This document shows, one piece after another, positions 4,002-7,510 of a stretch of DNA of 7,510 nt. The notes beneath the pieces were generated by a model. That model had not been told where the DNA came from and did no database searches. It worked only from the letters and a program-made list of their open reading frames with translations. Origin of the DNA: Candidatus Sumerlaeota bacterium (GTDB lineage: Bacteria; Sumerlaeota; Sumerlaeia; JADFCT01); NCBI GenBank assembly GCA_026398575.1, contig JAPLSP010000699.1:1-7510 (forward strand), written 5' to 3'. Position 1 is the first letter of the stretch, and every line of letters begins with the position of its first letter. A program made the position numbers and the translations under genes.

Positions 4002-4024
4002 ATAGATAGCGTCTTCCTATCTAT
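4002..4024. repeat. 8-bp perfect hairpin at the toxin stop codon
   Basis: ATAGATAG (4002-4009) and CTATCTAT (4017-4024) are perfect inverted arms around a 7-base loop. The right arm contains the TAG stop of the RelE-like gene. The stem is A/T-rich and no T-run follows on the minus strand, so it could be a 3' stabilising hairpin or weak terminator between the TA operon and pspC. It also overlaps the weak -35 suggested for pspC. Confidence 0.45.
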
Positions 4025-4325
4025 ATGCATCCTTTCGTTGATCTGCGGTTAATATGAACACCATACGCTCTTCCTCATCAATTAAGTAAAAAACACGATA
4101 TCGCCCTATTCGATATCGCCATGTCTCCGGACGGTAGCCATGCAGTTTTTTAATATTCGGTCCGAAATGCGGCTCGCGCCGAAGCTGAGGATAAATATAA
4201 GAAAGGAGCTTCTTCTTGATGAAGCCGGCATCAAAAGGTGAGAATTTTGCGAGTCTTTTGCGCAATTCTTCTGTTTCAAATATTCGATAATCAGACAAAT
4301 GATCCTCTCCTATGATTTGCGTCAT
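4017..4325 (-). CDS. RelE/ParE-family toxin
   Basis: 102-residue basic protein of the RelE/ParE superfamily, second gene of an antitoxin-toxin operon. The diagnostic core is YRIFETEELRKRLAKF at the start, then FGPNIKKLHGYRPETWRYRI, then GRYRVFYLIDEEERMVFILT with a short tail RKDAYR. The 'L-x-G-x-x-x-x-x-W-R-Y-R-I-G-x-Y-R-V-x-Y' run is the standard toxin strand pattern; related RelE enzymes cleave mRNA in the ribosomal A site, while ParE-like ones inhibit gyrase, and sequence alone does not decide. Two starts are plausible. The ATG at 4323-4325 has GAGGGG upstream and overlaps the antitoxin gene by 35 bases. A TTG at 4296-4298 has AGGAGAGG five bases upstream, would give the more usual short N-terminus and reduces the overlap to 8 bases. 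I list the ATG. Confidence 0.87.
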   Translation of the reverse strand: MTQIIGEDHLSDYRIFETEELRKRLAKFSPFDAGFIKKKLLSYIYPQLRREPHFGPNIKKLHGYRPETWRYRIGRYRVFYLIDEEERMVFILTADQRKDAYR

Positions 4326-4530
4326 TAGTGCCCCTCTTGAGGCTCCGATTTAATTTGCGATTGCTCTTGATCTCCGCCATTTCGTATTCATCAACCATTT
4401 GATGCTCTTCAATAAATCGCATAGCGGCAGTTTCGATGAAGTTCGAGAGCGCTCGATTCTCCTGCTCAGCGCTGGACCTAAAAATCCTGTAAACGGGCTC
4501 ATTGAGCCGTAAGGTAACTGTTTTCGACAT
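4291..4530 (-). CDS. Ribbon-helix-helix (CopG/RHH) antitoxin
   Basis: 79-residue protein with an N-terminal ribbon-helix-helix: the DNA-binding strand KTVTLRLNEPVYRIFRSSAE (about 3-22) and the second helix ENRALSNFIETAAMRFIEEH (about 24-43). An acidic then basic tail follows, which in such antitoxins wraps the toxin. The pattern 'xVTLRLxxxxxxxxxxxAxxxxRxLSNFIExAA' is common among antitoxins paired with RelE-like toxins, as here. The ATG at 4528-4530 is preceded by AGGAG nine bases away; the frame extends further upstream but that would run into the promoter. It should repress its own operon, and a 29-bp palindrome over the promoter (4586-4614) is the likely target. Confidence 0.85.
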   Translation of the reverse strand: MSKTVTLRLNEPVYRIFRSSAEQENRALSNFIETAAMRFIEEHQMVDEYEMAEIKSNRKLNRSLKRGTNDANHRRGSFV

Positions 4531-4614: not shown

Positions 4615-4787
4615 CCATGGTTACAGATGCAGCTCCATAAAGACCGTGTCTTTCATTCAAAAAATGACTGACAAAACGATGGATGACAAAATTCCAAACT
4701 ATTCATCAAGCGGCGCCGGCCTTGCCCTTGACAGCCCTCGCTTCGCGTTCAACAATCCCTGCACTGCAAGGAATGCGGCCTGAAGCA
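4615..4787. other. Gene-free spacer, possible gene remnant at its right end
   Basis: No convincing gene lies between the TA promoter and the repeat unit. The composition changes abruptly near 4710: A/T-rich to the left, G/C-rich to the right. On the minus strand, 4706-4787 can be read as a tail ending EREARAVKGKAGAA and TGA, running directly out of the repeat. That could be the last codons of a gene cut off by the repeat, but another minus frame is open over the same bases and the case is weak. Confidence 0.35.
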
Positions 4788-4867
4788 GCGCCAGCTTTTG
4801 GAGTGCGGTTGCTTGCTGCCGCTTTTTGCTTCGATATTCCATAAGATTGGCGTAGCAAAAGCGGCAG
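4788..4867 (-). repeat. ~80-bp hairpin repeat unit, copy 1
   Basis: Begins GCGCCAGCTTTTGGAGTGCG and ends AGCAAAAGCGGCAG. It is the inverted copy of 6146-6224, differing at a limited number of loop and stem positions. Two folds are visible: an outer 14-bp stem, CTGCCGCTTTTTGCT (4816-4830) with AGCAAAAGCGGCAG (4854-4867) and one bulged T, around a loop containing GATTGGCG; and a small imperfect hairpin in GCGGTTGCTTGCTGCCGC. The size and structure resemble a REP/BIME-type element. Its last base adjoins the first surviving codon of the Gfo/Idh/MocA gene and supplies an in-frame TAG (4853-4855) just upstream. Confidence 0.85.
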
Positions 4868-5959
4868 AGGATCGGATTCATCGGCGCGGGCGCGGCGAAC
4901 TTCGGCGGAGGCGAAGGGCCGTGGGATCATGCTTCGCGGCTCGAAAAAATTCCGGGCTTGGAGTGCGTGGGCGTGACCGATCCCGACGTCCGGCTGGCGC
5001 GCGAAAAACTTGCCCGGCGCCGGCATCCCATGTTCGACGGCGCTAAAGTTTTTCCCGCATACCAGGCCATGATCGCCGAATGCAAGCCCGACACTGTCTG
5101 GATCGGCGTGCCCCCGAACGCGCACGGCGTCTGCGACCCGGGCAGGGACATGGAACTCAAATGCGCAGCGGCGGGGATTCATCTTTTCATCGAAAAACCG
5201 CTCTCCTGCGAACGCCCCGAAAAAATCCGCTCGGTGGCCGCCGCGCTCGAAAAAGCCAACGTCATCACCGCCGTGGGCTATATGTTCCGCTACAGCCGCC
5301 CCATCGAGCGGATGCGCGAGATCCTCGCTGAAACGCCCGGCGGGGCCAGGGCGTTCCTTGGCCGCTACAACTGCGCCTATAGCGAAATCCGCAAGGCTGA
5401 ATGGTGGGACGTGCGATCGAGCGGCGGACCGATCGTCGAACAGGCGACGCACTTTGTTGACCTGGCGCGCTATCTCATGGGAGACGCCCAGCTGGAAACG
5501 GTCAAAGGCGTTTCGGTTCGCGGAGCGGGTCCGGCCTGCGATCTTTGCGATACCCCAACGGCGCCGGATGGAAAGCTTTGTGGCGCCGATGTTCCGGAAG
5601 AGTTCCGCCATCCGCGCGTCACCGACGCGGTGTGGCGGTTCGAGTCCGGCGCCGTCGGCTCGCTGAATCACGCCACGCTTCTTCACAAGAAAAAATACGA
5701 CACCGAGATCGAACTCTGGGGCGACGGCCTGCGCCTCGTGCTTCAGGACCCCTATGGCGACACGCGGCTGCTCATCCGCCGTCCCCATTCCGAAGAGACA
5801 GTGATTGAGACCTTCGGCGAGGACGATCCCTACCTGAGCGAAGACGAAGCGTTCGTCGCGGCGATCCGCACAGGAAACCGCTCGCCGATCCGCAGCCCAT
5901 TTTCCGACGCCCTTCAGACTCACAGTCTGGCCTGGGCAATCACCGATGCCGCAAGGTAG
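4868..5959 (+). CDS. Gfo/Idh/MocA-family oxidoreductase lacking its start codon
   Basis: 363 codons of an NAD(P)-dependent sugar oxidoreductase. The Rossmann N-terminus RIGFIGAGAANF begins at 4868 and runs in frame through LEKIPGLECVGVTDPD. The family markers follow: VPPNAHG, then AGIHLFIEKPLS with the catalytic EKP (about 109-111), GYMFRYS (137-143) and GGPIVEQATHFVDLARYLMG with the expected His/Asp (195, 198). The C-terminal alpha/beta domain appears complete. No ATG, GTG or TTG lies between the TAG at 4853-4855 in the repeat and the Rossmann motif; the first possible start, TTG at 4958, would delete GxGxxx and so cofactor binding. The gene therefore looks broken at its 5' end by the adjoining repeat, without promoter or ribosome site, unless the join is an assembly error or a non-standard start (ATC 4871) is used. 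Substrate is unknown. Inverted repeat copies flank it. Confidence 0.85.
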   Translation, partial: RIGFIGAGAANFGGGEGPWDHASRLEKIPGLECVGVTDPDVRLAREKLARRRHPMFDGAKVFPAYQAMIAECKPDTVWIGVPPNAHGVCDPGRDMELKCAAAGIHLFIEKPLSCERPEKIRSVAAALEKANVITAVGYMFRYSRPIERMREILAETPGGARAFLGRYNCAYSEIRKAEWWDVRSSGGPIVEQATHFVDLARYLMGDAQLETVKGVSVRGAGPACDLCDTPTAPDGKLCGADVPEEFRHPRVTDAVWRFESGAVGSLNHATLLHKKKYDTEIELWGDGLRLVLQDPYGDTRLLIRRPHSEETVIETFGEDDPYLSEDEAFVAAIRTGNRSPIRSPFSDALQTHSLAWAITDAAR

Positions 5960-5980: not shown

Positions 5981-6083
5981 TAAACCTAAGTATTCGGGCT
6001 CATAAACTCGGTGACCTATTTTTGACTAGAAGCGAAGGTAATGCGGTTGGAAGCGGCGCCAGCATTTGGAGTGCGGTTGCTTG

Positions 6084-6123
6084 CTGCCGCTTTAGCTACG
6101 CCAATCTTATAGACCATCGAAGC
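6084..6123 (+). repeat. 40-bp direct repeat, copy A
   Basis: CTGCCGCTTTAGCTACGCCA (6084-6103) plus the next 20 bases to 6123 recur at 6146-6185 with 38 of 40 identical; the differences are ATAGACC against GTAGATC. The repeat period is 62 bases. Confidence 0.85.
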
Positions 6124-6145
6124 AGGAGAAATCCATCTACTCGCC

Positions 6146-6225
6146 CTGCCGCTTTAGCTACGCCAATCTTGTAGATCATCGAAGCTAAAGCGGCAGCAAG
6201 CAACCGCACTCCAAATGCTGGCGCC
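6146..6225 (+). repeat. ~80-bp hairpin repeat unit, copy 2 (complete)
   Basis: Complete unit in the opposite orientation to 4788-4867. It contains a perfect 14-bp stem, CTGCCGCTTTAGCT (6146-6159) with AGCTAAAGCGGCAG (6183-6196), then a tail GCAAGCAACCGCACTCCAAA and TGCTGGCGCC. Compared with copy 1 the stem has paired A/T to T/A changes on both sides, which preserves pairing. The first 40 bases are direct-repeat copy B. Confidence 0.85.
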
Positions 6226-6238
6226 CCGCCGATCCGCA

Positions 6239-7510
6239 TTAGCCTTCTCTTCCTTTCAGGAACTTGATCTTCTTTACGGGTATCTCTCCCTTTCTGGCCT
6301 CCAGAAAGGGCTTGCTGTTTTTGACGCCGACGGTTCCGTATCCCGTTGCCGTGGAAATAAAGCAGCGGAAATCGCCTTTGATGCGCGGCTCCAAGTAGAG
6401 AACCTGCTCCACGGCGTCATAGCGCGCGCCACCCAGGCCTTGCAGGAGACCATAGCTGGACATGGCGCGGGCGTACCAATGGCCGCACTCGTATTCATTG
6501 AAAGGATTGCGCGTGCGGCCATCATAGCGCGCGCGGCAAACGCGCACGATCTCGAGGCCTTCTTCCACCAGGCCCATCATCATCAAGTGCGAGGCGACCT
6601 GGTATTCGATTCCCGTCCAGACTTCATTGGAATAAACAAACGGCAACGAGAGCGCGCCGCCCCTGGGCCATGTGCAAAGCAGCAGCCCTCCTTCGGCGCC
6701 GCATGCATAGCTGGGACGCTGGGGATTGGGGTGAGCCGTCAGGTCGCGCTTGAGACAATACTTATGGACCGCTTTGAGATGGCTGGCGGTCTTGGCGGCA
6801 TCCATCACCTGCCCCACGCCGCAGACGCCCGCGATCCAGGCGCCGAGAATCCCATCCGCGAGGCAGCCGTTGCCGTATTGATATTTCGGACCCTCCTTGT
6901 TCAGGAGTTCGCGGGCCTCGGGCGTATAGCCGCCGACCATGCTTTTGACCTCCAGCGGGCTTTGGGCGCGCAGACCCTGCCACTGAATTTTCTGGATGAA
7001 ATATTCGCCGTTGTAGAGTTCCTTTTCCATGCGCTTCACGCCGCTCTCATAAAGCTCGGCGTAAAGCGCCTGCTTATCCTCCAGCGCCTCGCCCATCAGC
7101 ATCGCCGCCTTGAGCGCGCCGAGATAAAAACTCGTGCACATGCCGTCCGGACCCCAGAACTCGATGTCGTAGGTGTTATGATGCGGCTCTTCCAGCCAGC
7201 CTTTGTGTTTGGGGTCCCAGGTCTCGATGCAATAATCGAGGCTTTTTTTAATCTTGGGCCAGAGGCCGCGCAGCCATTGCGTGTCGCCGCCGATGCGCCA
7301 CTCGCGATAGGCCTTCATGATGCCGCCCAACTGCCCGTCGCTGGCAGCATGGAAGGCATGGTCAGTCGGCCGGATGGGCAGGGACGCCCGGAACGTCTGG
7401 TGGCCGCGGTCGTCCTGGCCGGGGCCAAACTCGGCGTCCCGCAGGGAGCGCTCCAGGTCGGGGAACAGGTGCGGCAGGGCCTGAGCATAGTTCCATACGT
7501 GCGTGCAGGA
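6239..7510 (-). CDS. GH116 (GBA2-like) glycosidase, C-terminal half
   Basis: 423 residues of a protein whose start lies beyond the window; full-length relatives are roughly 800-900 residues. The frame is open to the window edge and opens with CTHVWNYAQALPHLFPDLER, a hallmark of the (alpha/alpha)6 catalytic domain of GH116. Others follow: DGQLGGIMKAYREWR (about 57-71), LEEPHHNTYDIEFWG (about 106-120), where the nucleophile Glu of the family resides, NGCLADGILGAW (about 214-225), whose Asp is the probable acid/base, EVWTGIEYQVASH (about 296-308) and RNPFNEYECGHWYARAMSSY (about 334-353). GH116 enzymes are retaining beta-glucosidases, beta-xylosidases or glucosylceramidases; the substrate here is undetermined. 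The TAA at 6239-6241 is 13 bases from the composite palindrome. Residues seen look intact. It converges with the oxidoreductase gene. Confidence 0.9.
   Translation of the reverse strand, partial: SCTHVWNYAQALPHLFPDLERSLRDAEFGPGQDDRGHQTFRASLPIRPTDHAFHAASDGQLGGIMKAYREWRIGGDTQWLRGLWPKIKKSLDYCIETWDPKHKGWLEEPHHNTYDIEFWGPDGMCTSFYLGALKAAMLMGEALEDKQALYAELYESGVKRMEKELYNGEYFIQKIQWQGLRAQSPLEVKSMVGGYTPEARELLNKEGPKYQYGNGCLADGILGAWIAGVCGVGQVMDAAKTASHLKAVHKYCLKRDLTAHPNPQRPSYACGAEGGLLLCTWPRGGALSLPFVYSNEVWTGIEYQVASHLMMMGLVEEGLEIVRVCRARYDGRTRNPFNEYECGHWYARAMSSYGLLQGLGGARYDAVEQVLYLEPRIKGDFRCFISTATGYGTVGVKNSKPFLEARKGEIPVKKIKFLKGREG

Follow-up and report, generated by a model that had tools for sequence, protein, structure and literature searches.

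A REP-like repeat abuts a Gfo/Idh/MocA oxidoreductase gene that has no canonical start codon in a Candidatus Sumerlaeota contig

We analysed an entire contig of 7,510 nucleotides from Candidatus Sumerlaeota bacterium (the window) in which a REP/REPIN-like repeat ends at position 4867 and the very next base begins the body of a Gfo/Idh/MocA oxidoreductase gene. The contig contains this junction, two copies of the repeat have a common right end, the start of the gene is missing and the remainder of the gene is intact. The explanation towards which we lean is that a REP/REPIN-like element inserted with loss of target DNA, or that a later deletion reached the element, and that the gene start was lost in this event. 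Most probably the case is an ordinary lesion of REP type; otherwise it would be an assembly artefact at the repeat.

The junction at 4867 and the missing start

The predicted oxidoreductase contains two domains, PF01408 (E 5.3e-14) and PF08635 (E 2.6e-35), that both score over the cut-off. Its frame is open from 4868 to 5956, is stop-free over 363 codons and reads RIGFIGAGAANF from 4868, which bears out a preliminary description of an intact, in-frame Rossmann motif beginning at this base. Across the junction the codons CAA AAG CGG CAG of the repeat are followed by AGG ATC GGA TTC ATC GGC of the gene body. That 4867 is the last base of the repeat and that a TAG lies 13 bases upstream of the frame were both confirmed in the sequence (Table 1), and a codon scan agreed that no ATG, GTG or TTG lies between this TAG and the Rossmann motif. 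The first canonical in-frame start is TTG 4958, which is inside the Rossmann domain, and initiation at this codon would remove 30 residues and the glycine-rich motif. The candidate starts nearer than this are weak ones, ATC 4871, ATC 4880 and ATT 4949.

Table 1. Positions of genes, repeat copies and signals around the junction
Feature	Position	Strand	Basis or remark
ParE-type toxin gene	4017..4325	-	domain profile
Antitoxin-like gene	4291..4530	-	DUF6290 just under cut-off, weak ribbon-helix-helix hint
Sigma-70-like site TTGACA-17-AACAAT, left of repeat, oriented toward gene	4728..4756	+	weak, pattern only
Repeat copy 1: outer arm AATGCGG...GCGCCAGC, one REP-type hairpin, spacer	4772..4867	+	
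REP hairpin GCGGTTGCTTGCTGCCGC of copy 1	4805..4822	+	terminator-like by pattern
Long imperfect hairpin, last paired base 4867 (junction base)	4815..4867	+	
In-frame TAG inside repeat copy 1, 13 bases 5' of Gfo/Idh/MocA frame	4853..4855	+	
Headless Gfo/Idh/MocA oxidoreductase gene (PF01408, PF08635)	4868..5959	+	ORF, domain profiles, homologues
Repeat copy 2: full inverted REP doublet including outer arms, between two convergent genes	6040..6240	.	
GH116 (DUF608) gene, truncated by contig end	6239..7510	-	domain profile

The promoter had also been proposed as lost. We found no support for this because a promoter-like site persists to the left of the repeat; this site matches the sigma-70 consensus at 10 of 12 positions, is recognised by pattern only (1 found, 0.3 expected by chance) and may differ from the ancestral promoter. 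The first repeat hairpin followed by TTTTT resembles a terminator, again by pattern only (2 found, 0.9 expected).

The junction creates a GAGG at 4867-4870 that ends 9 bases 5' of ATC 4880, and a database protein of 359 amino acids from the same contig (P0001) begins at this ATC. Together with the well conserved gene body, this would fit a gene that is expressed from a non-standard start, either ATC 4880 with the GAGG as its ribosome site or ATC 4871. We consider this highly unlikely. ATC start codons are very weak, a start at 4880 drops the RIGFI stretch that precedes the glycine motif, the 114 homologues among the matches listed whose N-terminus is covered all begin elsewhere, and the start of P0001 is a gene call, which is not evidence of use. 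An extension of this idea, in which the mobile hairpin did not kill the gene but remade its start from the same GAGG and ATC 4880 or 4871, leaving a gene with low-level, non-AUG initiation, is one that we would scarcely credit; if true, a REP-type insertion would have given a previously normal gene weak initiation at a non-AUG codon.

The repeat copies and their family

Copy 1 (4772-4867) recurs at 6240-6146 on the minus strand and partly at 6040-6093 on the plus strand. The alignment of copy 1 with 6240-6146, the minus-strand half of copy 2, opens at AATGCGG, closes at AAAGCGGCAG and is interrupted by a single gap, in a run of T; from the next base onward the two diverge. Because the two copies end on the same base, 4867 is probably a boundary of the element. 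The left end of copy 1 is less sharp because the outer arms are only partly alike, and we place it at approximately 4772 and not at 4788, where the repeat had earlier been taken to start. The right end is a partial inverted REP arm that terminates in AAAGCGGCAG. Copy 1 is not a full inverted doublet, as copy 2 is; since the second arm of a full doublet would continue through CAAGCAACCGCACTCC and copy 1 stops before this, copy 1 is one of two things: an independent shorter unit, or a doublet truncated close to the tip of the hairpin.

The REP hairpin of copy 1 forms seven of eight stem pairs if G-T pairs are allowed, with one T-T mismatch. The segment 4797-4867 folds with a z score of -3.66 (2 of 200 shuffles fold as well), and the whole of copy 1 (4772-4867) with a z score of -1.93 (10 of 200 shuffles). 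Within copy 2 a 40-base segment is directly duplicated (6084-6185, 62 bases start to start), and the inner edge of this duplication, 6146, is the same repeat base as the junction base 4867. The outer end of copy 2 (AATGCGG, minus strand, 6234-6241) shares bases with the TAA that terminates the GH116 gene.

The three exact REP cores in the window belong to a family of inverted pairs of TGGAGTGCG-hairpin-CGCTTT with the core pattern TGGAGTGCG-NNN-GCTTGC-NNN-CGCTTT. Of 68 genomes in the phylum of locus L008, whose record is titled Candidatus Hydrogenedentota, 16 contain the exact core, with up to 58 matches in one genome (G110); a reversed-pattern control had no matches in the same 68 genomes. 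One of 149 Planctomycetota genomes (the phylum of L002, Planctomycetales) also contained the exact core. BLAST with copy 2 yielded matches in 20 of the 68 Hydrogenedentota-phylum genomes and in 2 of 45 genomes of the phylum of L001. The outer-arm pattern had no matches in 392 Planctomycetota genomes, the 26-base exact repeat core had none in either the genome collection or the viral collection, two patterns of 20-21 bases had none in viral contigs, and Rfam gave no matches at gathering thresholds.

Inverted doublets in other genomes lie 42-178 bases apart, start to start. We compared 110 distinct arms, which include the three of the window; they were drawn from BLAST and pattern matches, some of them at sites selected for having no exact partner, so that the fractions are not genome-wide. 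Of these arms, 67 are matched by a complete inverted partner no more than 260 bases away, with up to 4 mismatches allowed. With G-T pairs allowed, all eight stem pairs are kept in 100 arms and seven in the other 10, where only three of the eight pairs are free to vary in the search pattern. Stem changes between copies are compensating. Broken doublets occur in other genomes as well. By eye, the second arm is cut inside the hairpin in 2 of the 110 arms, copy 1 and L037, and we therefore rejected a general habit of such cuts. L073 and L090 have lost the outer flank alone, and L075 has Ns at this place. A tally of gene ends beside 45 doublets (44 were 5' ends and 45 were 3' ends, with 8 of the doublets inside an ORF) was discarded because a crude choice of ORFs misnamed the flanks of the window.

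REPINs are paired REP sequences that are thought to be mobilised by RAYT/TnpA-REP proteins. The family described here resembles them in having short GC-rich hairpins, a conserved flank, inverted pairs, many copies in some genomes and compensating stem changes between copies, and by this anatomy it is REP/REPIN-like. It differs in its flank, which is TGGAGT and not GTAG or CGTC, and in that copy 1 is without the outer part of the second REP. In Hydrogenedentota-phylum genomes the matches point to a REP-like family whose flank is unusual. Neither tag was found in the window or in the Hydrogenedentota-phylum copies, which read TGGAGTGCG.

GTAG-tagged REPs occur in the PVC superphylum, including Verrucomicrobia, according to passages in Di Nocera et al. 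(PMC3733652). In our material the GTAG tag was seen in loci L011-L014 only (two genomes of the L001 phylum; Hainich groundwater bin), where the GTAGAGCGGYTGCTTGCTGCCGCTC-type repeats have nearly the same stem as that of the window. The copies in the window and in the Hydrogenedentota-phylum genomes have GGAGTGCGG instead of GTAGAGCGG. Because the GTAG-tagged repeats share a near-identical GCGGYTGCTTGCTGCCGC stem, the comparison suggests that the stem was retained through a change of tag.

A Y1_Tnp domain was found in 54 of the 68 Hydrogenedentota-phylum genomes, 13 of the 16 with the repeat and 41 of the 52 without it. The repeat core was beside none of the 24 Y1 transposase loci examined, which are part of the matches listed and of which 21 are in genomes with the repeat. 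These counts revealed no association of the family with a RAYT. A text search of one literature collection found no paper that names both repetitive extragenic palindromes and Hydrogenedentota; among the matches listed there was none to the full core, and the shorter GGAGTGCGG alone matched, in papers with unrelated titles. The passages seen of a paper covering TnpA-REP cleavage (PMC8266576) carry no weight for this case.

Homologues, neighbouring genes and base composition

A homologue search returned 635 matches, with 120 among the matches listed, including the protein of the window itself. Of the 119 others, 114 cover the N-terminus; the five in which it is missing (P0018, P0050, P0070, P0111 and P0114) were left out of both N-terminus counts. 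All 114 have residues 5' of the first R of the window's protein, five residues in 61 of them and from 1 to 47 overall (among the matches listed). The preliminary description had allowed that repeat-free orthologues might begin at the same residue, and had proposed that orthologues be compared for the missing N-terminal codons; among the matches listed, all 114 begin upstream. Because the protein starts are choices of gene callers, orthologous loci were also read as DNA. In all eight loci read (44-62% identical; L009 and L010, 33-35% identical, were left out of the ten) there is an in-frame ATG 5-9 codons upstream, and in none do the preceding 400 bases contain a full REP core, with up to 4 mismatches allowed. 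The repeat is absent from all eight genomes that hold the Gfo orthologues. At E 1e-60, a cut-off too strict to recover even the 312-base piece in L008, no Gfo orthologue was found in the 68 genomes of the L008 phylum.

The oxidoreductase has the same domains as other Gfo/Idh/MocA oxidoreductases with PF08635 and is 67% identical to its nearest relative among the matches listed. It differs from most homologues in having no canonical start and about five fewer N-terminal residues. Among 82 columns of the alignment that are conserved in 97% or more of the remaining rows, the protein of the window deviates at 2; counting the window itself, 24 of 115 rows show at least this many deviations. By this comparison the gene body shows no sign of decay after the start, and we rejected gene decay as the cause of the missing start. 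The loss of the start would therefore be recent, tolerated or not real. Because no canonical start is present, the gene is probably silent or weakly translated, a state that would be recent.

To the left of the repeat, a gap of approximately 240 bases separates copy 1 from the antitoxin-like gene, whose start we placed at 4530 instead of 4593. This gap is the upstream region of the leftward toxin-antitoxin pair. A gene tail that had been suggested to run out of this side of the repeat was rejected, since no Pfam match with an E value of 1 or below was obtained for either reading tried.

The two genes on the right, Gfo and GH116, have a third-position GC of 0.74 and 0.76. On the left, the DUF169, DUF1080 and unknown genes have values of 0.66-0.75, and the small genes (toxin-antitoxin and PspC) values of 0.38-0.53. 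By base composition the two sides are not separable and a chimera is not clearly indicated. Homologues of one gene from each side of the repeat, compared as a test for a chimera, carry mixed phylum names on both sides, which favours neither reading. The low values on the left include three small toxin-antitoxin-like modules among GC-richer genes, at 864-1097 (HicB-like), 2143-2830 (a frame upstream of a HigA-like gene) and 4017-4530 (ParE and the antitoxin-like gene).

These values bear on the idea that homologous recombination between two repeat copies joined the gene to other upstream DNA. The contig does contain at least two copies of the repeat, which makes such an exchange conceivable, but nothing in its composition marks the left flank as foreign. 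Moreover, recombination inside the repeat swaps flanks and keeps the junction of each copy with its neighbour, so that it would not by itself explain the lost start. Because of this, both recombination and a misjoin would need a pre-existing junction of the repeat with AGGATC, in a copy where the start had already been lost. We regard recombination as an unlikely origin.

Origin of the junction

The coincidence of the repeat end with the lost start, on which the preliminary description had centred, is real; recombination or a misjoin alone would not account for it. Of the mechanisms considered, insertion, deletion or a chimeric read would be able to create a new junction between repeat and gene. 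Insertion with deletion, one of the possibilities first raised, fits best because the right ends of two copies coincide to the base and the gene shows no damage elsewhere. The element would have landed in the divergent region between the antitoxin-like gene and the Gfo/Idh/MocA gene. The loss would comprise the ribosome site together with the start codon and a small number of codons after it (the commonest count in homologues is five residues, counting the start), and would have happened either in the course of the insertion or by a later deletion that halted at the base of the element's hairpin. We infer that the junction exists in the cell, that events took this order and that expression is affected.

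Both routes have a parallel: Bertels and Rainey (PMC3116915) report that REP doublets excise, and they propose that singlets come from doublets by decay, insertion or deletion. Against insertion or deletion at the element stand the rarity of second arms cut inside the hairpin, with copy 1 itself one of the two cases, the lack of a repeat core at the 24 Y1 loci, and a Y1_Tnp domain that is as common in genomes without the repeat. The absence of the repeat from the eight genomes with orthologues also counts against it, as do the five of 119 listed homologues in which the N-terminus is missing too. No target-site duplication was shown. The locus offers one possible case of a REP-like repeat removing a gene start, and as such bears on how these repeats harm or reshape their hosts.

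A contig that is chimeric at the repeat had also been suggested. A k-mer misjoin in the repeat would be insufficient, as it cannot make a new repeat-gene junction, but a chimeric read could make one. The junction could then be an artefact of a chimeric read, or of a template switch at the hairpin, in a low-coverage metagenome contig. The breakpoint coincides with the base of the hairpin and no second contig is known, the protein cluster having two member sequences from one contig. Furthermore, 11 of 40 repeat sites taken from genomes sharing the repeat are at most 200 bases from a contig end, where these additional sites were hand-picked among the matches listed for having no exact partner, a choice that favours contig ends. 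On the other hand, the second copy in the window stops at that base too, a coincidence not expected of a random chimera, and the same repeat subtype lies on both sides of the gene, suggesting that repeat and gene come from one genome. We view an artefact as possible though doubtful, and continue to lean towards insertion or deletion at the element. Because 11 of the 40 sites are near contig ends, the repeat family seems to break assemblies, and in metagenome contigs gene calls and joins beside such repeats need read support. In these 11 cases (L067, L068, L072, L085, L088, L091, L092, L094, L095, L096 and L097) the contig ends 20-194 bases past the repeat core.
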